The notes below the pieces were generated by a model that did no database searches, was not told the origin of the DNA, and saw nothing but the letters and a program-made list of their open reading frames with translations. Of a DNA stretch of 25,709 nt, positions 4,177 through 20,701 are shown in pieces (positions within the stretch are counted from its first letter, which is position 1; every line of letters starts with the position of its first letter). Origin of the DNA: a virus; the IMG/VR virus record IMGVR_UViG_3300030104_001158, positions 1 through 25,709 of that record; one strand, written 5' to 3'. The position numbers and the translations under genes are program-made.

Positions 4177-4590
4177 TTAACCTGTTATTGTTGTAGCCAA
4201 TTCACTCCAATCCTCATTAGTCATATTTCCTTTTTTATAAAACGTGCAGAACTTCAAGAAGTCTGGGCGTGACGGACGATTGTAAAGCAAGTCAACATAT
4301 CCTGCATTAACCAGTGCAATAAAGTCCCTGCCAATTCTAATCAACACCCAACTTGCTCCACCGTTTTTAAAGTGCTCCGCTGCCCAGTACATTTGATTTA
4401 ACTTCAATCCACTGCTGATTCGGTTTTTAGGAAACTTATCCAAATATTTAAGTTCTATCCATCCAGACTTTCCTTTGTGAATATAATGAATGTCAGGCAT
4501 CCCTTTGGTTACTTTATTTTCCACACGGTACATTTTATTAATTGGTAATTTATCTCTTAATAAATTCCAGAATTGCTTTTCACTTCCCAT
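4177..4590 (-). CDS. PD-(D/E)XK (VRR-NUC-like) nuclease
   Basis: This 137-aa protein has the PD-(D/E)XK nuclease signature: GMPDIHYI with Asp33, followed by WIELKYLD with Glu46 and Lys48. An upstream acidic residue (Glu4) lies in the first helix. Small standalone nucleases of this fold in phages process replication or recombination intermediates, often as Holliday-junction or flap nucleases of the VRR-NUC type. The gene is the last of the leftward early operon and is coupled to the SNF2-like helicase (ATG overlaps the helicase TAA in TAATG at 4588-4592). This helicase-nuclease pairing is common in phages. The fold call is strong; the exact substrate is not known. Confidence 0.8.
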   Translation of the reverse strand: MGSEKQFWNLLRDKLPINKMYRVENKVTKGMPDIHYIHKGKSGWIELKYLDKFPKNRISSGLKLNQMYWAAEHFKNGGASWVLIRIGRDFIALVNAGYVDLLYNRPSRPDFLKFCTFYKKGNMTNEDWSELATTITG

Positions 4591-6290
4591 TAGACTTCCT
4601 CCTCCTCTAAAAATATTGACATTGGATCTTTTGTTATCATGTCGGCAATCGACTTCTTATCTCGAAGTGCCTTGATAATTTTACTATCGATAGACTTCTG
4701 ACATTCTATATCGATATAGGTAACATTCGTTTTGGTTCCGATACGGTGGCATCGATCTTCACTTTGAAGACGCTGCTCTAAATCAAAACTATTTGAATAG
4801 TAGATTGCATACTCAGCAGCAGTCAGCGTTATACCAGTTCCTCCTGCCTGTGGAGTTCCAACAAAGTACCTAATCTTTGGATCGTTCTGGAAACGCTCAA
4901 TAGCGTACACTCTAGCACCTGGTGATACATCTCCGTGGTATGACACTGCCTGATCGCCCAACAGCTTCTCTATGACCCTTATATCGGGTCTAAAGCGTGC
5001 CCAGATAATCGTCTTGGAGTTGATCCCACTCAGAATGTCTTTGAGAGCTTCAATCCGTGGGTTTTTATCGTCAATAGCTTCGATGCCATCTTCCGTTGGA
5101 AACCAACCGCATAATATCTGTTGCATCCTCAGAAGCCGTGTAATTGCCTCTGGAGCCTCTATTGTCTCTCCACCTAGTTCTGCAATGAAAGACTTCTTCA
5201 TCGTGGTGTAGAGCTTTCTCTGTTTCTCTGACATGTCAACGTAATATCTCTGGTAGATCTTGTCAGGTAAATCCAAGCAATCTTTCTTCAGCACTCGAAA
5301 GGAATGTGAATCAATAGAACGAACAAGTTCATCTGTATTTTGATAGGACACAATTTGTTTTTGCTCATAGCCACCCATGACGCAGTATCTTGCTTTGAAA
5401 CTATAGTAGCTGTCGTACCCCAGAATATTTGGATCTAGAAACTTAAACTGGCTGTAGGCATCCTCAGCACCCTTCGTCACTGGTGTACCTGTCAGGATGC
5501 GTCGGTACTTGGCAAGTTTTCCAAACTTTGTAATTGCCTTGGTTCTCTTCGCAGAAGGTGTCTTGATCCGTGTGCTCTCATCCACAACCATCATGATGTC
5601 GTTTGCCAGTAATATCTTCTGCATGTGGTAAATCGCTTTGGGTGAGCTGAACGCCTCGACATTAAAGGTAAATACTCTCAGGCAATCTTTTGCCATTGAC
5701 ACCTCGTCAAATCGCTCCTGTTCTTTTTTATTCATACCTGAACGGTAAAACACAGTCTCCCTTGGACACCAGTCAGGAAGGTGAATATCAATTTCTTTCA
5801 GCCAATTTCTGTGGACTAAATTCGGTGCGATGACTACCAAGCAATTTATCTTACCACCTGCGTAAAGATAAGCAGCGTTATCAATAATAACTTTTGTCTT
5901 TCCAGTTCCTTGTTCCATTAACAGTCCAAAGTTCTGCTTATCACGAGATATGTAGAAAGCTTTACGCTGATGCTTGAAGGGAACAGTCTTAAAATCAAAG
6001 TCATCGTTAGCAGGGAGATCTACCTTTTTATTCTTCAGGGTATCTTCCGCTGCCTTCAGATTATCAATGTAATTATCAAGATGATGGACAACATCATCGT
6101 CCCAAGTGCAGTCAGGCCAAAACTTATGTATCCGTGCTATGGTTGCACCAGTCGGTTGAAACAACAACTCTCGTGCAATCCATCTCTTAAATGACGGAAG
6201 TGTTTCCACCTTCTGGAGAACATCGGAATCCACCTTGTCAAACTTCAACAGGCAGTATTTATTTCCGTATGGACCTTTCGTTATTCTCAT
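4590..6290 (-). CDS. SNF2-type DEAD/DEAH superfamily 2 helicase/translocase
   Basis: This 566-aa protein carries the full set of SF2 motifs in order. Walker A is MEQGTGKT (125-132), the DEAH-type motif II is VVDEST (235-240), and motif III is LTGTP (266-270). In the second RecA domain are a motif IV region (IIWARFRPDIRVIEKLL), motif V (GTGITLTAA) and motif VI QSEDRCHRIG (509-518). The QxxxRxxRIG form is typical of SNF2/Rad54-like translocases. It likely remodels DNA or protein-DNA complexes during phage replication or recombination, powered by ATP. It lies just upstream of the PD-(D/E)XK nuclease and 3 bp downstream of the small gene at 6293. Length is normal for the phage subfamily, which lacks large accessory domains. 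Confidence 0.92.
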   Translation of the reverse strand: MRITKGPYGNKYCLLKFDKVDSDVLQKVETLPSFKRWIARELLFQPTGATIARIHKFWPDCTWDDDVVHHLDNYIDNLKAAEDTLKNKKVDLPANDDFDFKTVPFKHQRKAFYISRDKQNFGLLMEQGTGKTKVIIDNAAYLYAGGKINCLVVIAPNLVHRNWLKEIDIHLPDWCPRETVFYRSGMNKKEQERFDEVSMAKDCLRVFTFNVEAFSSPKAIYHMQKILLANDIMMVVDESTRIKTPSAKRTKAITKFGKLAKYRRILTGTPVTKGAEDAYSQFKFLDPNILGYDSYYSFKARYCVMGGYEQKQIVSYQNTDELVRSIDSHSFRVLKKDCLDLPDKIYQRYYVDMSEKQRKLYTTMKKSFIAELGGETIEAPEAITRLLRMQQILCGWFPTEDGIEAIDDKNPRIEALKDILSGINSKTIIWARFRPDIRVIEKLLGDQAVSYHGDVSPGARVYAIERFQNDPKIRYFVGTPQAGGTGITLTAAEYAIYYSNSFDLEQRLQSEDRCHRIGTKTNVTYIDIECQKSIDSKIIKALRDKKSIADMITKDPMSIFLEEEEV

Positions 6291-7767: not shown

Positions 7768-8256
7768 CTATTGTTTACAAACGCCCTCCACATATACATC
7801 ATCTGCATTTTCCAGACAACTTATTTGTTTTGGTCTGGAGAGTGGAGATGAATCTGGTTCCTTTTCTTTGTAAAATACATGGTTGCCAACGGTAGCTGTC
7901 ACCTCCATGTCTTCTGTCCAGTAAGGAGGGTCAATATCAACTGAATGATAATGTGTGGCTTCCTTTCCAACAACAGATATGTAGTGCCCCTCTTCAATCA
8001 TCAACTGAGCAATCGCCTTGGCACGCTTCATGGAATTTTTATCTGCCATTTTATCTGGCTTACCATCGCACCACCAAGAATACGCACAACCGTTTTCATT
8101 TTCTTGGAGCACAACCCCACAAATATCGTCAGGGAAAGCAGGAGAGGCAACCCTGTTTAGGGTCACCTCAGCAACTGCGATCTGGCCTTGCACCTCCTCT
8201 CCTCTGGCCTCGAAATAAAGATTTAAACTCATACACAATAAAACTGTTTCTATCAT
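7768..8256 (-). CDS. SleB-type cell-wall hydrolase (probable endolysin)
   Basis: This 162-aa protein matches the SleB/Hydrolase_2 family along its length. It has LYFEARGEEVQGQIAVAEV with the probable catalytic Glu16, then LNRV, DDICGVVLQ, AYSWWCDGKPD (about 58-68), THYHSVDIDPPYW (about 101-113) and a Cys-containing tail. The family cleaves peptidoglycan as spore-cortex-lytic or murein hydrolases and serves as endolysin in many alphaproteobacterial and marine phages. There is no obvious signal peptide, so export would need a holin. Its start overlaps the stop of the upstream 94-aa gene (ATGA), and its TAG is buried in the leader of the methyltransferase. Sitting inside the replication operon, far from structural genes, is unusual for a lysis gene. 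Confidence 0.87.
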   Translation of the reverse strand: MIETVLLCMSLNLYFEARGEEVQGQIAVAEVTLNRVASPAFPDDICGVVLQENENGCAYSWWCDGKPDKMADKNSMKRAKAIAQLMIEEGHYISVVGKEATHYHSVDIDPPYWTEDMEVTATVGNHVFYKEKEPDSSPLSRPKQISCLENADDVYVEGVCKQ

Positions 8257-9335: not shown

Positions 9336-11699
9336 TTAGAAGAGGCTAGATTGCATTGCCACCTTCTTTTTCCCTGATAATAACTCCTCCTGCCTTGGTG
9401 TCAGTATCTGATTCGTTTTTCTTCTCTGCACAATATCCTCAGCCATTTTAGGTCCAACACCTCTAATCATGGTCAATCCACCAATGAGCTGTCCATCTTG
9501 CACTGACCAGTTCACTTCGGATTGATAGCGGTCAAATTGTTTGTAGGAATATCCACCAGTCTTCAGCTCCTGTAAAACTCGTTCTGTCTGTTCATCGTCA
9601 CGAGCATTTCTGAGTGTCGCTGCTGAGAACTCCAGTGGAAACTTGGATTTTAATACACAGCAGTAATAGCTGACCATTGCATAGGCTACAGCGTGTGACT
9701 TATTAAAGGCGTAGGCTCCCATTGTATTAATGTTATCCCAGATCTCCTGAATTTTCTGCTCTGGTATTCCCTGCTCCAAAGCTCCCTGTTTAAACTGTCC
9801 AAAAAACTTATCCATGTATTCCTTACCCAAAGACTTCGAGGTTGCCTTCCTCAGTGCTGATACATCCTCCCATGACATCTTTCCAACATCACGAGCAATC
9901 AACATCACCTGTTCCTGATAAACAATAACTCCGTAAGTCTCTCTTGTAATATCCTCAAGCAACGGATGCATATAGGTAACTTCCGTCTGACCTATTCGAC
10001 GCTTGACGTATTGAGCTGTTCCCCCTGAGTTTAACGGACCAGGCCTTGCCAGTGACGTAATAGCTGAGATGTCATCAAACTTCCTGACCTTCATTTCATC
10101 CGTCAGCTTTTTAAGTGCGTATCCCTCGAACTGAAATATCCCTGCATATTTCTTATCGTTCAGAATATCAAAGGCATCCTGATCTTCAAGGTTATAGCTC
10201 AAGAGCTTTTCTCGTGACCAACCCACCTGATCAAGTACATCCTGTATGACTGACAATGTTCTTAACCCCAGTGCATCGATCTTGAGTAAGTTCAGTGATT
10301 CGGCATCCTTCTTATCAATCTGAGCTGAATACTGGCTTACTGCACAATACTTGCTGACTGGGTCTTGAGTGACCAAAACCCCTGCAGCGTGAACCCCAGA
10401 ATGTCTGGCGTGGTTTTCCATCTCAACTGCATTTCTAAGCTTTGGATATTTATTCATCATTTGTCGTCCAACACGAGTATCCGTAAAGGTGTCAAAAATA
10501 CAGAGGTCAGCTCTTGGCTCTCCAAGTGCCCTCTCAATAATATTATCTTTCAGTAAGACAATGTCAGCCGTAGGCATTTTTAAATCCTTACACACTTCTG
10601 AAATTGCAGAGCGTGCCTTATACCGACTGACGGTTCCCAAGTGAGCAACCTTCTCAGCTCCGTATTTATTTCTAAGATATTCAAAAACCAATTCACGTTT
10701 GTCATCTTGAAAATCAATATCAATGTCTGGCATGTCAGCTCGACTGACATCTATAAATCTCTCGAACAGCAATCCAAACTTTATCGGATCGACATCTGTA
10801 ATTCCAATCAGATAGCAAACCAGACTTCCTGCTGACGAACCACGAGCAGGACCAACCAACATATGTTTCTTTGCGTAGTTCACCATATCCGCAATCACAA
10901 AGAAGTAATCCTCAAATTTCTTTTCTGCTATTGCCTTCAATTCTCTGTCCAGACGCTGCTTATATTCTCCAGTTAGCTCAACACCTAATTTCTCTGCACC
11001 TGCCTCACAAAGCTCCTGCAATGTTACTGGTGATTGAAATGATATCATCTGAGCTACTGGTAGTTCTGCATTGCATTCATTGGCAATGTAGTGGGTGTTT
11101 TCCTTTGCATCTCGTGGTATCCAACTAGGAAGCTCATAGTCGTGTCGAAGATACGATGCACCGTTAATTTTATTTGACCCCACAAGGATCTCATAAGTTT
11201 CCCTGTCTTTTTCTGTCGGATAGTAATTGTCAGAGGTTGCCACTGGCTTAAACCCTTTGGATCGACAAAACTCCAGTGCCTTTGGTGAACTCATTTCAAT
11301 ATATAGGTTTTCTTTTTTGGTTCGAGGTAACAATCCCCAGACTGGTTTAAACCCTGAAAGCATGATGACGTTTTCAGAAACATCAAAAAGATCCTCATAG
11401 GTAATACGGTCACGCTGAGTTGCACTTTTGGATACAAGCTCATAAATCTCAGCTAAACCGTCATTATTCTTTGCCAGAAACCCCATCATATTTTCTTGGG
11501 TATCTTCAGCTACACAAATCTCAACTCCCAGAATTGGCTTTACGTTATACTTTTTACACATTTTAACAAAGGGAACATGACCCCACGTTCCAGTGTCTGT
11601 AATGGCTAAGGCATCCAAACCAAACTGGGCAATGACTTTCTCTATCGTTCCGTAAGCTTTGCGAAACGAATACTCCGTTCTAACCCTTAGCTGAATCAT
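9336..11699 (-). CDS. Family C (DnaE-type) DNA polymerase III alpha subunit, short phage form
   Basis: This 787-aa protein is a family C replicative polymerase. An N-terminal PHP domain (LRVRTEYS...ALAITD...KPILGVEICV) is followed by the palm, with GPARGSSAGSLVCYLIGI and MPDIDIDF carrying catalytic Asp327 and Asp329. The third Asp (475) is in LLKIDALGLRTL. PGPLNSGG and FNKSHAVAYAMVSYYCCVLKS fit the fingers, and a C-terminal helix-hairpin-helix GVGPKMAEDIV is present. The PHP metal ligands are largely lost (the usual HxH reads QLRVR, and TDHG reads TDTG), so proofreading by PHP is unlikely. It is much shorter than cellular DnaE (about 1160 aa) and lacks the C-terminal OB and tau-binding regions. 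The ATG at 11699 has AGGAGG six bases upstream and overlaps the previous gene by 20 bp. Confidence 0.93.
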   Translation of the reverse strand: MIQLRVRTEYSFRKAYGTIEKVIAQFGLDALAITDTGTWGHVPFVKMCKKYNVKPILGVEICVAEDTQENMMGFLAKNNDGLAEIYELVSKSATQRDRITYEDLFDVSENVIMLSGFKPVWGLLPRTKKENLYIEMSSPKALEFCRSKGFKPVATSDNYYPTEKDRETYEILVGSNKINGASYLRHDYELPSWIPRDAKENTHYIANECNAELPVAQMISFQSPVTLQELCEAGAEKLGVELTGEYKQRLDRELKAIAEKKFEDYFFVIADMVNYAKKHMLVGPARGSSAGSLVCYLIGITDVDPIKFGLLFERFIDVSRADMPDIDIDFQDDKRELVFEYLRNKYGAEKVAHLGTVSRYKARSAISEVCKDLKMPTADIVLLKDNIIERALGEPRADLCIFDTFTDTRVGRQMMNKYPKLRNAVEMENHARHSGVHAAGVLVTQDPVSKYCAVSQYSAQIDKKDAESLNLLKIDALGLRTLSVIQDVLDQVGWSREKLLSYNLEDQDAFDILNDKKYAGIFQFEGYALKKLTDEMKVRKFDDISAITSLARPGPLNSGGTAQYVKRRIGQTEVTYMHPLLEDITRETYGVIVYQEQVMLIARDVGKMSWEDVSALRKATSKSLGKEYMDKFFGQFKQGALEQGIPEQKIQEIWDNINTMGAYAFNKSHAVAYAMVSYYCCVLKSKFPLEFSAATLRNARDDEQTERVLQELKTGGYSYKQFDRYQSEVNWSVQDGQLIGGLTMIRGVGPKMAEDIVQRRKTNQILTPRQEELLSGKKKVAMQSSLF

Positions 11700-11991
11700 C
11701 GATTGCCTCCTGAATAAATGCATAGACCCCAAGATCGTGCATGGAGTCCTTATGCATTTTATCCCACTGGTTGCAGTACCGCATAAGCTTGTGAATTATC
11801 ATTACAAAATTACCCATGCGATTGATTTCTTCTTTCCTCCCATACTCCGAAAGATTATTAACTTTTGGCAAGCCCTCTGGAAAAAGAGCTTGCATGACTT
11901 CTCCATACTGGCTGTACGTATTGCCATAAGAGGAGCGTTCTTTAAACGTCTTGACCGCTTCCTCTATGTTTTTCAATGGCGTTACTTCCAT
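11680..11991 (-). CDS. DUF6378-like phage protein
   Basis: This 103-aa all-helical protein reads ERSSYGNTYSQYGEVMQALFP, then INRMGNFVMIIHKLMRYC, then DSMHDLGVYAFI. The pattern (R-x-x-YG-x-x, then a K/R-rich helix, then D-x-x-x-D-x-x-x-Y) fits the DUF6378-like proteins common in phages. Their helical layout recalls MazG-type nucleotide pyrophosphohydrolases, but the full acidic metal-binding set is not evident, so I do not assign activity. The ribosome site AGAGGA precedes the ATG by seven bases. The start overlaps the end of the 68-aa gene and its end overlaps the polymerase start. Confidence 0.65.
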   Translation of the reverse strand: MEVTPLKNIEEAVKTFKERSSYGNTYSQYGEVMQALFPEGLPKVNNLSEYGRKEEINRMGNFVMIIHKLMRYCNQWDKMHKDSMHDLGVYAFIQEAIDDSAKG

Positions 11992-13202: not shown

Positions 13203-14663
13203 TCATAATGTAAAGTGTCGAAGACCACGAGGTCTTATAAAAAACAAGTTCTCTCTGGTTCTTGTCAGTGCAACATACCAAACCCTGTTTTCCTCATCTG
13301 TTCCCAAGGCATCCCAACTCAACTTACCCATGTCCGTCAAGACAACGACATTGTCGGCCTCACCGCCTTTGGACTGATGGATTGTTGATATTGTAATTCT
13401 TGGCTTGTCATGAAACCTTTCTCCATTTCGCATACAGGATCTCAAGTATTCTCTCTCGTCAGGTGGTATTCCCCTGAGTACAGACATCCAATCTCTCTCA
13501 ATCGCTTCTGGTGGCAATCCAAAATCCTCTAGGCTGTATGTTTCCTTTGCTCGAAGCTTAACCTTAAACAAGAAAAACTTGGCAAGGTTTTCCGCATCAA
13601 AAAGAGAAATCTGTTTCTTCTTTCGCATTGTCTCCCATGCCATAATAGCCCTTGTCTCATCCGTATCCAAGGAACTCCTGCCATTATAAATGTATCCGTA
13701 TCCCTGTTGCCGTGCAACTTTCTTTAATCGATACAGCAGGTACTTACTTCTTGCCATGCAGAGCCAAGTTCCACTGCGACTGAAATCTATGTTATCGTCA
13801 TCTGAAACGTAGTGAACCCTTCCGTGATCCAACTTCGGTGTCCACGGCTTGACGTATCTATTTTTTATCCGACTGACAATGTCGTTGGCATATCGATGCA
13901 CCGCCCTTGGAACTCGAAAACTCTGAGGTAGGATCACCTTGTCCCCTCGCAAGCTTAGAAACTTCTTAACGTCAGCTCCTGCCCAACCAAAAATAGCCTG
14001 ATCGTCATCCCCTGCAATATACACCTCAGACGCATTTTGAGATGCCAAGATTGCCATGCGAAACTGAAGTGAGCTTAAATCCTGAGCTTCATCAATTATA
14101 CAAATGTCAATTGGCAGTGGCTCCTCAAACTTCTCAAGCATATCCGTAAAATCAAAAAGCTTGTTCTCTCTTTTATATTTGGAAAGAGAATCACGGTATT
14201 GCTTTACAGCGTGAAAGCTTAGGTCATTTTCATTGGAGTAATTGTATTGCGTTTCCAGATCTCTTAACCCAACACGAGCTAGTGATTCCACCCTCGAACA
14301 TTTATCCCCCAATCCATAGCCATTGTGAATGCCCAGATCCTCATCGTAAATCCCCTTGAACTCAACACCCATAGCCTTGCCAATTTTCACAAAGTGTTTA
14401 TCGGTCATGACATCCTCACGTTTTAACCCCAGACGTTTGTATGCCAGTGAGTGCAGTGTCCTAAAGTATGGAAAGCGTGATGTCTCAAAGTTAAACTGTT
14501 CCATTGCTCGTTCCTGAGCTTCATTCGCTGCCTTTCTTGTGAATGCTAAGTAGGCGATTCGCTCTGGCTCTATTCCACGAGCTAAACTGTTTTCAACAAT
14601 CTTTAATAGACTGGTGGTTTTTCCTGTTCCTGGTGGTCCTAATATTATCTGAACATGTCTCAT
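13203..14663 (-). CDS. UvrD/Rep-like superfamily 1 helicase
   Basis: This 486-aa protein has the SF1A motifs. Walker A is GPPGTGKTT (9-17), motif Ia is AYLAFTRKAANEA, motif II is IIDEAQD (189-195), and motif III is GDDDQAIFGWAGA (218-230). Motif IV is LPQSFRVP (245-252), motif V is STIHQSKGGEADNVVVL, and motif VI is VWYVALTRTRENL. It should unwind DNA 3' to 5' with ATP at replication forks or during recombination. At 486 aa it is shorter than cellular UvrD (about 720 aa), with reduced 1B/2B insertions, as in other phage versions. The primase lies just upstream, and its TAG forms the start of this gene's TAGAAAGGAAG leader. No DnaB-type replicative helicase is seen in the window, so this may be the fork helicase. 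Confidence 0.92.
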   Translation of the reverse strand: MRHVQIILGPPGTGKTTSLLKIVENSLARGIEPERIAYLAFTRKAANEAQERAMEQFNFETSRFPYFRTLHSLAYKRLGLKREDVMTDKHFVKIGKAMGVEFKGIYDEDLGIHNGYGLGDKCSRVESLARVGLRDLETQYNYSNENDLSFHAVKQYRDSLSKYKRENKLFDFTDMLEKFEEPLPIDICIIDEAQDLSSLQFRMAILASQNASEVYIAGDDDQAIFGWAGADVKKFLSLRGDKVILPQSFRVPRAVHRYANDIVSRIKNRYVKPWTPKLDHGRVHYVSDDDNIDFSRSGTWLCMARSKYLLYRLKKVARQQGYGYIYNGRSSLDTDETRAIMAWETMRKKKQISLFDAENLAKFFLFKVKLRAKETYSLEDFGLPPEAIERDWMSVLRGIPPDEREYLRSCMRNGERFHDKPRITISTIHQSKGGEADNVVVLTDMGKLSWDALGTDEENRVWYVALTRTRENLFFIRPRGLRHFTL

Positions 14664-14674
14664 TGGCTTCCTTT

Positions 14675-16201
14675 CTAAAAATCTTCTTTTACCTCACTTG
14701 GTATATCCAGTGGCTCGTCATCATAAAACTCAGGAGCAGGAACTGACCAGACTTTCACTGGCTTTGACTTTATCCTAAATGTATTTCGATCTCCACCTAA
14801 AGTTCTAAGCCAACTCCAAATCTGATGCTGAGATGGATATCGAAACCTTCGAGCCTCTAGATATACAAACAAATCTTCTGACCGAAAGTAAACTTTTCCC
14901 TCATCCGAATCATGCCACGGTTTGGCATTCATGATCTCATCTTTATGTCGAGCTTGCACCTTTCCTGTTAAAAACGAATCAAGCATTTTCTCAAACTGAC
15001 CTTGTGGGGATGCATCATCTGGATCGACAATCACCTCGACACTCTGAAGCAATTCATTAATTCTCTTTTCCCACTTCTGACTGGGCATTGTGCTTGGACA
15101 TTTATTTAATTTCTCCACACAGATTTTCTGAAGCTGTCTTTGATCCAATAGCTGTGGAGTTGTGACTTCTATTCTTTCTCCCTGCATTTCAATATACCAC
15201 CGCACCGACTGCTTGTTTTCAGTCTCGTATTTGGTAATGGCATCCACCTCAATAGCCAACCCACCGCCAAATCCACCGACACCAAACTCACGTTTCATGC
15301 ACTTTGGTTTCTCACAGTAATTGCAAATGGGTGATTGCTTACAGGTGTAGGCATAATCTTTTCGACTGACGGACTTGACCAATGCGTTAACCTCACCGCT
15401 TGGCAGTGGCTCTGGTAAATGTTCGTAATTAAATCGCATGAGATCTTCCTGCCAATCGTCAGGATTTTTCTTTCTGAAGTAAACCCCTACATTAAACAGA
15501 CTTATATTTCTTCCCCCCTCTGGAAAACCCATTGTAATAATGTGTTGTAAACATGGAGGACCATCAGAAAAGTGATCCAGTAATTTTGGTGCGATCCCCT
15601 GTAGTTCTTCGTAGTTCGTTTTTTTCTTTTCTGCCAGTGCCACAAACTGACTGAGACTTAGCTTCTTCCCTTTGTGAATGGCGTACCGTTCTGTATCGTC
15701 ACCATCCCAATAACATAGGTTTATCCAGTTCCCACGATCCAAGTCATTTGCTCTGGATGTCTGCTTTGGAAATATCTCTGATCCACCGTAGCCTAACTGA
15801 GCAGCAAACTCATTGAGCTTTGATACCATATCAACAGCACTAATGGCAGGATCAGTAAACAAATAAAGATGAGCACCACCAGACTTAGAACGACATAGTA
15901 CCAGAGGTGTATCACGGATTTTTTCTTCAAGACTTTCAAGCGTTTCATTTAATTTAACCTCGCCTCTTATATCGATATCGATCACACCGAAATTGCACGA
16001 GTTGTCTTGACGCAACATTATAATCCCAAGAATGTAATCTCCACCGTTTAAATGTGACCTGTAATTCTCAATGGTTGCAGGTTCACTAACTGTAACTGCT
16101 CTTCCTGACATTTTACCGTCAGCTTCTTTTTTCTGAACCCGATACTGACCATGAGCGAACTCATAACCCTGAAACAAATTCATGAATCGATTGACTTCCA
16201 T
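14675..16201 (-). CDS. Archaeo-eukaryotic-type primase (AEP/primase-polymerase) with a Cys cluster
   Basis: This 508-aa protein carries AEP primase features: FGVIDIDIRG with the metal-binding pair Asp75 and Asp77, then LCRSKSGGAHLYLF with the S-x-H-type motif at His111, and GSEIFPKQ at about 140-147. A cysteine cluster follows, C-x5-C-x2-C-x4-C (Cys287, 293, 296, 301; CKQSPICNYCEKPKC). It resembles the Cys cluster seen in TOTE-type and related primases and probably binds Zn or Fe-S. The remaining ~200 residues include a possible DNA-binding C-terminal module (YPSQHQIWSWLRTLGG). It would make primers for the DnaE-like polymerase encoded downstream. The leader is AGAAAGGATAGGAA before ATG, just after a terminator-like hairpin. 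The AEP call is firm; the exact subfamily is not. Confidence 0.85.
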   Translation of the reverse strand: MEVNRFMNLFQGYEFAHGQYRVQKKEADGKMSGRAVTVSEPATIENYRSHLNGGDYILGIIMLRQDNSCNFGVIDIDIRGEVKLNETLESLEEKIRDTPLVLCRSKSGGAHLYLFTDPAISAVDMVSKLNEFAAQLGYGGSEIFPKQTSRANDLDRGNWINLCYWDGDDTERYAIHKGKKLSLSQFVALAEKKKTNYEELQGIAPKLLDHFSDGPPCLQHIITMGFPEGGRNISLFNVGVYFRKKNPDDWQEDLMRFNYEHLPEPLPSGEVNALVKSVSRKDYAYTCKQSPICNYCEKPKCMKREFGVGGFGGGLAIEVDAITKYETENKQSVRWYIEMQGERIEVTTPQLLDQRQLQKICVEKLNKCPSTMPSQKWEKRINELLQSVEVIVDPDDASPQGQFEKMLDSFLTGKVQARHKDEIMNAKPWHDSDEGKVYFRSEDLFVYLEARRFRYPSQHQIWSWLRTLGGDRNTFRIKSKPVKVWSVPAPEFYDDEPLDIPSEVKEDF

Positions 16202-17909: not shown

Positions 17910-18273
17910 ATTTTTCCTTTCTCATTTCAAGGGCAACAGGCATATACCATCCTTGTTTTCGATCCCTGTTGCCTTCCTCAGTTTTACGCTCCCATCTTAG
18001 GACACGCACGATTGGTGACATTTCAGATGCAATCATGCAAGCAATCATAACAGCTATTGGGTCACCACCACCAGGCCAGAGGAGAAAATCCTCTGGACTG
18101 AAATCCTTCATTATCCGTCTTGCCTTTTGTATTGATGGACTGGGGAGAAATTGTGGCTTTTCGTTTGGCTCAAACACTACCTCCAATTCACCATACCTTG
18201 TGGCATCCGTTAAATCAGGTGTCCACCCAAACTTATTTTGCTGTGGACGGTTGACTATATATACTTTAGGCAA
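17902..18273 (-). CDS. Phage protein of the VYIVNRP type, TTG start
   Basis: This 123-aa protein begins (M)PKVYIVNRPQQNKFGW. It continues with ATRYGELEVVFEPNEKPQF, then FSPEDFLLWPGGGDPIAVMIACMIASE and VRVLRWERK. This layout (VYxVNRP, Y/F-GELxxL, 'S-xx-D-x-LL...GDP-x-x-x', 'LxW') is familiar from small phage proteins of unknown role. The start codon is a TTG at 18273, preceded by a full TTAGAAAGGAAAGAGT box, so the TTG is credible. The box carries the TAG of the upstream zinc-ribbon gene. Confidence 0.65.
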   Translation of the reverse strand: MPKVYIVNRPQQNKFGWTPDLTDATRYGELEVVFEPNEKPQFLPSPSIQKARRIMKDFSPEDFLLWPGGGDPIAVMIACMIASEMSPIVRVLRWERKTEEGNRDRKQGWYMPVALEMRKEKYG

Positions 18274-18285
18274 ACTCTTTCCTTT

Positions 18286-18501
18286 CTAATAATATTTTGA
18301 CTTACCCTTGGCAGCAGGTTTAAGTTCCTGAAAAAATTCCTCTGGGTAGTCATCATTTAATATGTCACTGGTCTTAAATCGAAAGCGACAACTTGGGCAA
18401 AAACGAAGTCGAAACGTGACACCATTCTTTTTACCTGCATTCTGTATTCTCGTATCCTCATATCCGCATTTTACGCAATGCATTTTTGTTTTGGGCCTCA
18501 T
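18286..18501 (-). CDS. NrdR-like zinc-ribbon protein, first gene of the leftward operon
   Basis: This 71-aa protein has a zinc ribbon: C-V-K-C (Cys9, Cys12) GYEDTRIQNA, then FRLRFCPSCRFRFKTSD (Cys35, Cys38). This matches the N-terminal ribbon of NrdR (CxxC...DTR...RRRxCxxCxxRFTT), but the ATP-cone that follows in NrdR is absent. Such a stand-alone ribbon probably binds DNA or RNA polymerase. Being the first gene behind the strongest leftward promoter, it is a candidate early regulator, possibly acting on the control region. This is inference; no target is shown. The leader is TTAGAAAGGAAAATATTA before ATG. Confidence 0.7.
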   Translation of the reverse strand: MRPKTKMHCVKCGYEDTRIQNAGKKNGVTFRLRFCPSCRFRFKTSDILNDDYPEEFFQELKPAAKGKSKYY

Positions 18502-18530
18502 TAATATTTTCCTTTCTAAGTGATTCGTCT

Positions 18531-18559
18531 AGTCTAATGGTAGTGATTCCAAAGGTCAA
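18531..18559 (-). promoter_or_regulatory. Main leftward early promoter (candidate)
   Basis: On the minus strand, TTGACC (18559-18554), 17 bp, then TAGACT (18536-18531), 30 bp before the zinc-ribbon ATG. It is the best -35 match in the leftward block and lies in the 182-bp divergent gap. That gap (18502-18683) holds no other clear feature beyond a weak rightward -10 (TAAAAT, 18647-18652). Confidence 0.55.
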
Positions 18560-18683
18560 ACAAAAAATAAATAAAGTTTTAATTGTTTAAAATCAATGGG
18601 TTATAAAATAGTTTACCAAAAACGCAAAACGAAAAAATTTCTGTGATAAAATGGTATTAGGACAAATCAGAAAGGAAAAGAAA

Positions 18684-18965
18684 ATGATTTTTACATATCC
18701 AAAGCCGTGTGTTTGTTGCGGAAAGAAAGCACCAAAAAAGACTGAATATTTTATGACTTGGGGTACACCTGCCATTGACGAATACAAAGGCAATCTCAAA
18801 GTTATTGCTAAACTGTACGATGGAGAGAGGTTAACTCTGTGGGATGGCGAAAGTTATGAACATCGCAATGGACACTTTTGCAGTTTGAAATGCTGTGAGA
18901 GTTACGCAAATCACATTGTGGCTGAAACAATCAAACGTAATATCAAAAGATTTAATAAAAAATAA
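18684..18965 (+). CDS. Small zinc-finger-like protein, first rightward early gene
   Basis: This 93-aa protein starts MIFTYPKPCVCCGKKAPKK and later contains HFCSLKCCESYANH, so it has C-x2-C and C-x3-C pairs that probably bind zinc, with a basic C-terminal helix (ETIKRNIKRFNKK). The start at 18684 has AATCAGAAAGGAAAAGAAA directly upstream; an in-frame ATG at 18651 lies before the leader and is unlikely. It is divergently paired with the zinc-ribbon gene at 18501. A regulatory or DNA-binding role is possible but unproven. Confidence 0.65.
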   Translation: MIFTYPKPCVCCGKKAPKKTEYFMTWGTPAIDEYKGNLKVIAKLYDGERLTLWDGESYEHRNGHFCSLKCCESYANHIVAETIKRNIKRFNKK

Positions 18966-18966
18966 A

Positions 18967-18994
18967 ATGACGGTTCTTAGTTCTCTTCTATACT
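18967..18994 (+). promoter_or_regulatory. Candidate rightward promoter reading into the GGTAAC array
   Basis: ATGACG (18967-18972), 16 bp, then TATACT (18989-18994). It starts just after the stop of the zinc-finger gene and points across the A-rich tract and palindrome, with no gene until 19259. It could make a long leader or an origin primer transcript. Confidence 0.4.
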
Positions 18995-19045
18995 ATAAGA
19001 AAATATTTCGAGGATAAAAAATAAAAAAATAAAAAAAGCACTTTT

Positions 19046-19149
19046 GCGGTAACAGCGGTAACGACATGCCTTTTCTATTTAGATTCCAGTGTGTTGTCTC
19101 TGTTACCTCATCCTAAAAGTTGCGGTAACCGTTACCGCTGTCTGGTAAC
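19046..19149. repeat. GGTAAC half-site array with a perfect 17-bp palindrome (candidate origin/operator)
   Basis: Six GGTAAC half-sites fall within 104 bp. Two are tandem GCGGTAAC copies with 9-bp period (19046-19053, 19055-19062). One is inverted (19102-19107). A perfect palindrome, GCGGTAAC-C-GTTACCGC, spans 19122-19138, and a final copy is at 19144-19149. An A-rich tract (19012-19039, AAAAATAAAAAAATAAA-like) lies immediately to the left. Iteron-like sites next to an easily melted tract, at the divergence of the replication operons, fit an origin; repressor operators controlling the promoter at 19202 fit equally well. Nothing else occupies 18966-19258. Confidence 0.72.
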
Positions 19150-19201
19150 ATCTCTGGAAGTTGTTGATTTTATTGAGTTAAAATTTATTTTAATTCAGGG
19201 C

Positions 19202-19229
19202 TTGACTTATCTGCTCAGTTTGATACTCT
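19202..19229 (+). promoter_or_regulatory. Rightward early promoter for the 62-aa and ArdC-like genes
   Basis: TTGACT (19202-19207), 16 bp, then TACTCT (19224-19229), 30 bp before the ATG at 19259. The stretch TTTGATACTCT is repeated exactly in the minus-strand element at 9278-9306. It lies 53 bp downstream of the last GGTAAC half-site, so a protein bound there could control it. Confidence 0.55.
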
Positions 19230-19258
19230 GTATAAGTAATCAGAAAGGAAACGAATCA

Positions 19259-19447
19259 ATGGAAAATCAATACACAGTGAAGCAGTTAGTAGAATTTGCA
19301 AAGAATGAAATGTTTGAACTTGGATATGCAACCGAAGAGCAGCTAGATCAAGTTATAGAAATTTTCAACAACGAAGGTTTAGCAGGGGATGATCTTTTTA
19401 CTGTTTGGGATGAAATCAATAATCCAGACTATTCAGAATTTATTTAA
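19259..19447 (+). CDS. Small acidic hypothetical protein
   Basis: This 62-aa acidic, helical protein (MENQYTVKQLVEFAKNEMFE...DDLFTVWDEINNPDYSEFI) has no cysteines or membrane helix. The start at 19259 follows CAGAAAGGAAACGAATCA; an in-frame longer reading from 19091 would translate the palindrome region and is rejected. It is the first gene behind the promoter at 19202 and is followed by a TTCG hairpin and the ArdC-like gene. Small acidic early phage proteins are often anti-host or DNA-mimic factors, but there is no specific evidence here. Confidence 0.55.
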   Translation: MENQYTVKQLVEFAKNEMFELGYATEEQLDQVIEIFNNEGLAGDDLFTVWDEINNPDYSEFI

Positions 19448-19454
19448 TCAATAT

Positions 19455-19470
19455 GGGAGCTTCGGCTCCC
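19455..19470. repeat. TTCG-tetraloop hairpin upstream of the ArdC-like gene
   Basis: Stems GGGAGC (19455-19460) and GCTCCC (19465-19470) enclose the stable tetraloop TTCG. It starts seven bases after the TAA of the 62-aa gene and 22 bp before the ATG of the next one. There is no T-run, so stabilisation or processing of the mRNA is likelier than termination. Confidence 0.65.
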
Positions 19471-19492
19471 CACCATTTAGAAAGGGAACCAA

Positions 19493-20371
19493 ATGTCAAA
19501 ATTAGCAGATCAAAGAGTAGTTCAGGAATTAACTGAAAAAGTCATAGCAGAAATGGAAAGCTGTAAAGCCGAAGGTAAGGGATGGACACCATCTTGGAAT
19601 GGTTCACTGTCAGGGTTACCATTAAACTTTCTCACCAACAATCAGTTGACTGGTGGAAACCTAATGGTGGCTCTTCTGTTGGGAGCTGACAATCGGTGGG
19701 CAACACCTGCAGGATTAAAAAAGGAAAAGATGTCTTGGAAAAAAGGATCAAAGACAGTTTGGTTTCTCCGTCCTATCGTTATCACCAAGGATAAGGAAAC
19801 TGGTGAAGATCTTAAAAAGCCATTTGTCTTCTTCAAGCCATACCCAATGATCAACGGTGCTGATATTAATGACATGCCAGAAACCGCTGATGTTAACACT
19901 GAGGTTACTCATGAAGAGCGACATAACAATGCTCAGGAGTTCTCTGACAATCTTGGAGTTACCGTCAGAGAATCAGGTCTTGGACGTTGTTATTATTCTC
20001 CTGAAGACGATAGCATTCACATGCCATATAAGAAGAACTTCAATTCTCTTGATGAGTATTTCTCAGTGTTGTTTCATGAACAGGCACATGCCACTGGACA
20101 TAAGTCACGGTTAAACAGATTTGAAAAGACAAAGGAAATATCCGAAAACAACTACGCATTCGAGGAGTTGGTTGCTGAATTGTCATCCATGTTTCTCTGT
20201 GCTCACTTCGGTATCTCTTTTGAGCCAACTGAGCAAAACGCAACCTACCTCAACTCTTGGTTGGGTGCTCTTAAAGGTGACGCTGCCTACATATGGAAAG
20301 CAGCTAAGTTCGCTTCGGAGGCAGTTAACTACTGCCTTCAAGCTCAAGACGAAATCAAACAGGCAGCTTAG
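19493..20371 (+). CDS. ArdC-like antirestriction protein with metallopeptidase domain
   Basis: This 292-aa protein combines an N-terminal ArdC-type ssDNA-binding domain with a zincin peptidase domain. The first is visible from KGWTPSWNGSLSGLPLNFLTNNQLTGGNLMVALL, then NRWATPAGLKK, then KGSKTVWFLRPIV. The second has HEQAHATGH (His195, Glu196, His199, His203, the HExxHxxGH form), followed by FEELVAEL. ArdC-family proteins coat incoming single-stranded DNA and protect it from host restriction; the peptidase's role is less clear. The leader TTTAGAAAGGGAACCAA precedes the ATG, and the TAG stop (20369-20371) begins the next gene's TAGAAAGGAA box. Length is normal for the family. Confidence 0.88.
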   Translation: MSKLADQRVVQELTEKVIAEMESCKAEGKGWTPSWNGSLSGLPLNFLTNNQLTGGNLMVALLLGADNRWATPAGLKKEKMSWKKGSKTVWFLRPIVITKDKETGEDLKKPFVFFKPYPMINGADINDMPETADVNTEVTHEERHNNAQEFSDNLGVTVRESGLGRCYYSPEDDSIHMPYKKNFNSLDEYFSVLFHEQAHATGHKSRLNRFEKTKEISENNYAFEELVAELSSMFLCAHFGISFEPTEQNATYLNSWLGALKGDAAYIWKAAKFASEAVNYCLQAQDEIKQAA

Positions 20372-20383
20372 AAAGGAAATAAA

Positions 20384-20701
20384 ATGGCTAAAATATTCGC
20401 TTGTAAATTACCCCCACTATCATTCTGTGGGGGAAGTAAAGTTCGGTTTAAAAAATTCTTAAAGACAAAACCAAAAGGTAAAACTTGGGTAAACGCTGTT
20501 CCGTATCAAACTTACTTGGAAGGCAATGAGCATAGACTTACTGGAAACAGAACAATATGGGTTGTAACTGGAATAAAATGGGTAAAGTATAGATATGCAG
20601 TCGGAAAAGAATTGCAGCCATACTTCCCTTGGACAAAAACTATTCGATTGTCAAAGTGGAACGCTGAACAAAAACGTCATTTAAGAGAGTTGTGTCCATG
20701 A
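20384..20701 (+). CDS. Small basic hypothetical protein
   Basis: This 105-aa, Lys/Trp-rich basic protein starts MAKIFACKLPPLSFCGGSKVRFKKFLK. It has two N-terminal cysteines and a repeated aromatic-basic character (TIWVVTGIKWVKYRYAV, then YFPWTKTIRLSKW). The ATG follows TTAGAAAGGAAATAAA. A perfect 7-bp hairpin (CCCCCAC/GTGGGGG, 20411-20433) lies 27 bases into the gene and could affect translation. Its TGA overlaps the next ATG. The family is not recognised. Confidence 0.55.
   Translation: MAKIFACKLPPLSFCGGSKVRFKKFLKTKPKGKTWVNAVPYQTYLEGNEHRLTGNRTIWVVTGIKWVKYRYAVGKELQPYFPWTKTIRLSKWNAEQKRHLRELCP
20411..20433. repeat. GC hairpin near the 5' end of the 105-aa gene
   Basis: Stems CCCCCAC (20411-20417) and GTGGGGG (20427-20433) enclose a 9-nt loop, inside the coding sequence. 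The stem is close to that of the terminator at 21042 and of the hairpin at 12865. Confidence 0.55.

Follow-up and report, generated by a model that had tools for sequence, protein, structure and literature searches.

A GGTAAC half-site array of conserved geometry as a probable phage replication origin and candidate recognition site of an AEP-type primase

The window analysed here, a stretch of 25,709 nucleotides (positions 1 to 25,709) of the 31,085-base virus record IMGVR_UViG_3300030104_001158, encodes terminase, portal, a DnaE-type polymerase, SNF2- and UvrD-type helicases and an AEP-TOTE primase, together with Pam3 gp32-, gp33- and gp34-like proteins. Two early operons diverge at 18502-18680, flanked by a leftward gene for a 71-aa protein and a rightward gene for a 93-aa protein. 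An array of GGTAAC half-sites, which the original prediction had placed at this divergence, was found one intergenic gap further on (18966-19258); its neighbours are the 93-aa gene on one side and a 62-aa ORF on the other, both of which run rightward. Terminase genes lie about 2 kb downstream of the array in the window family. A search with 18000-20500 for similar DNA gave no match in the phage collection, named phages included. The region 18966-20701 to the right of the array has the character of an accessory zone, as the adjoining ORF varies among near-identical relatives (the 62-aa ORF in the window, a different ORF in L023); an ArdC-like antirestriction gene at 19493-20371 is missing from many relatives, and a hairpin, GGGAGC-TTCG-GCTCCC (19455-19470), occupies the gap between the 62-aa ORF and this gene. 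The features of the array and the replication genes are as follows.

4590..6290, minus strand: SNF2-type helicase, candidate replication helicase; homologues in 6/6 related named phages
9336..11732, minus strand: DnaE-type (Pol III alpha) DNA polymerase
13203..14663, minus strand: UvrD-type helicase, candidate replication helicase; homologues in 6/6 related named phages
14675..16201, minus strand: AEP-TOTE-type primase, 508 aa, candidate initiator; residues ~395-490 predicted winged helix
18989..19149, no strand: whole conserved element, candidate replication origin (nhmmer profile match 19008-19169 in the window, corresponding blocks in relatives)
18989..18999, plus strand: TATACTATAAG box, promoter -10-like; with ATGACG at 18967, 9/12 matches (promoter scan, alignment)
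19014..19037, no strand: A-rich tract, candidate DNA unwinding element (direct reading; A/T-rich in aligned relatives)
19048..19053, plus strand: half-site (putative iteron) 1, GGTAAC (motif scan, alignment)
19057..19062, plus strand: half-site 2, 9 bp past half-site 1 (motif scan, alignment)
19063..19101, no strand: 39-bp spacer; length kept, sequence mostly variable, TTT at 19072-19074 conserved
19102..19107, minus strand: half-site 3, inverted, GTTACC on the plus strand (motif scan, alignment)
19124..19129, plus strand: half-site 4 (motif scan, alignment)
19131..19136, minus strand: half-site 5, inverted, making a 17-bp palindrome with half-site 4; many relatives keep ACC only
19144..19149, plus strand: half-site 6 (motif scan, alignment)
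19202..19229, plus strand: rightward promoter-like TTGACT-16-TACTCT of the next operon (direct reading; in the window below the promoter-scan cut-off)

As predicted, GGTAAC occurs six times (19048+, 19057+, 19102-, 19124+, 19131- and 19144+), within 102 bp where 104 bp had been given, with start-to-start spacings of 9-45-22-7-13. The tandem pair with a 9-bp period (19048+, 19057+) and the perfect 17-bp palindrome GCGGTAACCGTTACCGC at 19122-19138 were likewise confirmed, and a perfect 12-bp inverted repeat, ACAGCGGTAACG/CGTTACCGCTGT with arms at 19052-19063 and 19130-19141, had gone unmentioned. The nearly pure A/T tract is present, but its pure run measures 24 bp (19014-19037) and not the ~28 bp proposed. 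The whole element spans ~160 bp: the A-rich tract comes first and is followed by a direct pair of half-sites with a 9-bp period, an inverted site 45 bp further on and, after another 22 bp, the remaining sites. The copy number of the repeat exceeds chance: after dinucleotide shuffling of the window (300 replicates) GGTAAC reached at most 3 per 104 bp, against the 6 observed, and no hexamer exceeded 5; with the intergenic region shuffled 5000 times, the GGTAAC maximum was again 3. Single-strand DNA folding of the array was also stronger than that of shuffles (z -2.8); it was set aside as evidence of function, since inverted half-sites predict such folding. An Rfam search gave no match at the array.

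Relatives were gathered via the gp34-like and ArdC-like proteins and via the spaced GGTAAC pattern, and the spacing of the array was found to be kept in ~40 related contigs despite differing flanking small genes. Close relatives have exactly 9-45-22-7-13; in others CGAAACC replaces site 5 and the remaining sites stand at the same spacing. The palindrome is limited to a subset, as GGTAACCGAAACC stands at this place in L004, L006, L007, L008 and many others, and it was rejected as a signature, its matches in the collection beyond two close relatives being unrelated contigs without a comparable array, several of them apparently within coding repeats. Across 36 non-redundant elements, the most conserved columns include the half-sites, part of the A-rich block, the TATA at 18994-18997 within the TATACTATAAG box and the spacer TTT; the box also occurs in the drifted relatives L017 and L019. 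Conservation in relatives had been set beforehand as a refuting test, and with half-sites and spacing both kept the origin reading survives it.

A profile of the element matched 55 of the 70 primase loci that had at least 4.8 kb of upstream sequence, with 2.75-3.77 kb between the element, which lies upstream, and the primase C-terminus in every one. Of the 15 loci without a match, L017, L019, L176, L165-L168 and, in part, L014 show drifted arrays. No array was recognised near the primases of L163, L164, L228, L238 and L246. L017 and L019 carry a homologous block with GGGAAC/GGTTAC/GTTTCC half-sites, shared in part by L014 and resembled by the drifted block of L176; GGGAACG-like sites were found in L009 and L010, which are low-score profile matches. 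A fixed-spacing search of the drifted relatives for any hexamer failed because half-sites differ from each other inside one array.

Further elements were seen in some of these relatives. In one branch, additional GTTACCGA/AGTAACC sites precede the main array by ~100-200 bp (L004, 8637-8690; L007, 8514-8567); the window does not have them. A hammerhead-ribozyme-like sequence (CTGATGAG - stem - CGAAAC - GTC, stem-closed) lies on the minus strand of L007 at 7831-7894, with similar ones in L004, L006, L008, L055, L075, L086, L099, L102, L176 and L185, and another near 22611 in L165 (Acinetobacter phage Bhz20). Some fall in the rightward early region close to the array and none was found in the window; their Rfam scores of 17-19 bits are under the curated gathering threshold of 48-56.

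The genes around the array are far less constant. Among 21 related loci, the 71-aa gene was present in 11, the 93-aa gene in 1, the ArdC-like gene in 4 and the 62-aa ORF in 0, these counts being lower bounds as some loci are truncated. The two zinc proteins of 71 and 93 aa had been named as the nearest candidate binders, an assignment supported neither by these counts nor by L006, L007 and L008, in which the array is present and both genes are absent. The replication genes track the array, and the zinc proteins do not. Cumulative GC skew, the other check proposed, proved neutral: its minimum (18516) falls where the coding strand changes, and the array stands at no clear inflection in Barton, Bhz20, K21lambda1 and Kokobel2, whose genes are co-directional. 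GC skew follows gene orientation and thus says nothing about the origin here.

Remote homologues of the last 194 residues of the primase were found in 18 phage records at 25-35% identity, alignable along the whole stretch. In four of the six named phages examined, an array of similar layout occupies the gap directly before the primase gene: 8-53-32 with GGTAAC/GGTAGC sites in Barton, 8-8-52-25-8 with GTAACC-like sites in Bhz20 (both Acinetobacter phages), 8-8-43-12-21 with TGGAAC sites in the Klebsiella phage K21lambda1, and 9-8-44-12-21, again with TGGAAC sites, in the Providencia phage Kokobel2. No array was recognised in the other two, MW202510 and DSL-LC04 (L163, L164). An A/T tract comparable to that of the window is present in the window family and absent in the Barton-type phages. 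The IMG/VR contigs L248/L249, which also encode remote homologues of the primase, carry TATCAC in a 9-42-23-9-13 arrangement that ~110 bp separate from the primase ORF behind it. Other repeated hexamers (TTCAAG, TAATAG, CCAATA) occur upstream of the primase in L250 and several marine contigs; they are looser in layout and are taken as leads only.

Unrelated contigs with the spaced GGTAAC pattern and an intergenic array mostly adjoin a primase or helicase gene, the array often being located past its stop codon. The neighbouring genes comprise DUF5906/Pox_D5, VapE, BT4734/PriCT_2/VapE, Toprim/AAA_25, DUF927, AEP-TOTE and the PHROG 'DNA primase'. This survey was guided, scanning the large ORFs nearest the arrays with no unbiased count, and matches inside long ORFs were put aside as coding repeats; the sharing of the motif with unrelated phages is partly ascertainment, since the pattern search selected for GGTAAC. 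An exception is the family L068/L090/L092/L132/L145, whose GGTAAC arrays have integrase or ParB/methylase-like genes as neighbours. Contig 3300044765_000192 (L089, L090, L132) holds three GGTAAC arrays, related copies of which lie close to such genes, and a GGTAACACAAAA tandem repeat was noted within a 309-aa ORF of L114 and L155.

AEP-TOTE is the sole domain detected in the 508-aa primase, and a helicase domain was not found. An AlphaFold2 model of residues 315-508, built on an alignment of 44 sequences that share 25-98% identity with the window, reached a pLDDT of 86, and an earlier model from a shallow alignment (pLDDT 62) was discarded. Its predicted helices 85-97, 127-136 and 144-153 and strands 157-163 and 166-174 (fragment numbering) follow the winged-helix pattern, so that the C-terminus is confidently predicted to be a winged helix. 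In Foldseek searches against PDB, SaPIBov1 Rep was the best match (8tch; E 0.0078, prob 0.97, TMq 0.28), followed by the pCW3 relaxosome accessory protein, in a structure that includes oriT DNA (prob 0.97-0.99), and then PadR and HSF DNA-binding domains; winged-helix proteins are among the high-confidence matches, though none passes E 0.001. The modelled fold class is credible; the likeness to SaPIBov1 Rep is suggestive, and kinship is not established by it. Searches of PDB with the primase sequence returned nothing significant, and hhalign/HMM comparison found no relation between the winged helix and the array-linked D5, VapE, DUF927 and Toprim proteins.

Judged from these sequence comparisons, the array is quite likely a replication origin of the phage, and we consider it probable, drawing also on the predicted fold and on analogy, that the AEP-type primase encoded by the phage itself reads it as an iteron origin. 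On this model, the element at about 18989-19149 would be the origin and the GGTAAC half-sites its iterons, on which the primase (14675-16201) would dock through its C-terminal winged helix. Primase copies on both flanks of the 39-bp spacer could then form a complex and open the A-rich tract, after which the SNF2- or UvrD-type phage helicase would be loaded, the primase would lay a primer and the DnaE polymerase would extend it. Binding by the primase, melting of the tract and the start of replication at the array are inferred here by analogy. The reading is supported by the array itself, its conserved spacing, its persistence amid gene swaps, the layout beside homologous primases and the predicted fold. 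Against it stand the distance between array and primase gene in the window family, which are ~3 kb apart and not adjacent, the exception family, and the want of sequence kinship to the other array-linked initiators. The drift of the half-sites counts against it as well: the primase is 80-91% identical across phages with different half-sites (GGTAAC versus GGGAAC/GGTTTC), and as the reader it would therefore have to tolerate or track the drift.

The half-sites of such an origin might instead be read by the gp34-like protein, by the SNF2 or UvrD helicase or by a host initiator, with the primase merely recruited. Homologues of gp34, SNF2 and UvrD do co-occur with the primase in 6/6 related named phages, and gp32-gp34 are the conserved genes nearest to the array in the window family; we nevertheless regard this as unlikely, because in the Barton-type phages and L248/L249 the array stands immediately before the primase and far from gp34, because a winged helix is predicted at the C-terminus of the primase, and because the changes of half-site between lineages speak against one host factor. 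Of the two functions originally proposed, iteron origin and multi-site repressor region, the origin is the better supported. The operator retains a place since the array sits, as predicted, 53 bp upstream of a promoter-like sequence (TTGACT-16-TACTCT from 19202, by direct reading), at which L003 has a near-consensus TTGACA/TATAAT pair. A phage repressor or activator on the half-sites would then control the 19202 promoter and perhaps the upstream TATACT box, whose TATA is conserved, and iteron binders often repress a nearby promoter as well. Still, no regulator gene tracks the array, the genes downstream of it are swapped among relatives, and unrelated phages hold such arrays beside primase or helicase genes, which together make a purely regulatory role quite improbable. 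Origin and operator functions are compatible, and control of the neighbouring promoter may be a further role of the array.

The proximity of the terminase genes in the window family could point to a packaging (pac/cos) site, or the array could serve in partition. Both seem very remote, as in the Barton-type phages tail and primase genes flank the array and terminase is distant, and the scanned ORFs of the window yielded no ParB-type gene. That the array arose by chance, or through drift of repeats with no function, has practically nothing to recommend it: no finding spoke in its favour, and the shuffle test and the column conservation across the 36 elements argue against it.

Taking the primase-read origin one step further, we tentatively suggest that this phage lineage uses a helicase-free AEP primase as origin recogniser, with the origin geometry fixed and the half-site rewritten, although we would give this broader proposal somewhat less than an even chance. 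The geometry would consist of 2-3 direct sites 8-9 bp apart, 42-53 bp, one or more inverted sites and further sites, and the rewritten half-sites would be GGTAAC, GGGAAC, TGGAAC, TATCAC and possibly TAATAG. For most environmental phages the replication origin has yet to be mapped, and an array layout that is conserved and goes with a family of primases would allow origin prediction in many uncultured viruses, extending to the named phages Barton, Bhz20, K21lambda1 and Kokobel2. The primase-linked layout also makes the role of the primase as initiator directly testable, and, if the proposal is true, the rewritten half-sites form a natural series for reading the winged-helix recognition code.

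Compared with known systems, the window resembles iteron plasmid origins in having direct iteron-like repeats near an A/T-rich tract; it differs in combining direct and inverted half-sites around a ~39-bp spacer, and no plasmid-type Rep initiator was found. In the collection of papers searched, none paired GGTAAC with an iteron; the P4 iteron contains GGTGAAC, which is reminiscent of GGTAAC. SaPI Rep recognises an iteron origin beside its own gene via its C-terminal domain, and SaPI Rep and SCCmec Cch2 are alike in that clusters of short iterons beside the initiator gene are read by a C-terminal DNA-binding domain (PMC7581432). Their binder, however, is a self-loading helicase with a separate primase, whereas in the window phage the binding role is assigned tentatively to the primase, and the helicases are encoded apart from it. 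P4 alpha is a primase that binds origin repeats through a winged helix (PMC4234260), but it unites a Toprim-type primase and a helicase in one protein, while the window primase is of AEP-TOTE type with no helicase domain found. The pRN1 replication protein ORF904 is an AEP primase with a C-terminal winged helix that acts at its own origin (PMC4234260), differing from the window phage in its stem-loop origin without iterons and in the SF3 helicase within the same protein. It has been suggested that AEP-SF3-winged-helix replication proteins assemble on stem-loops and not on iterons (PMC4234260), and an AEP primase that reads iterons, if our interpretation is true, would contrast with that suggestion.
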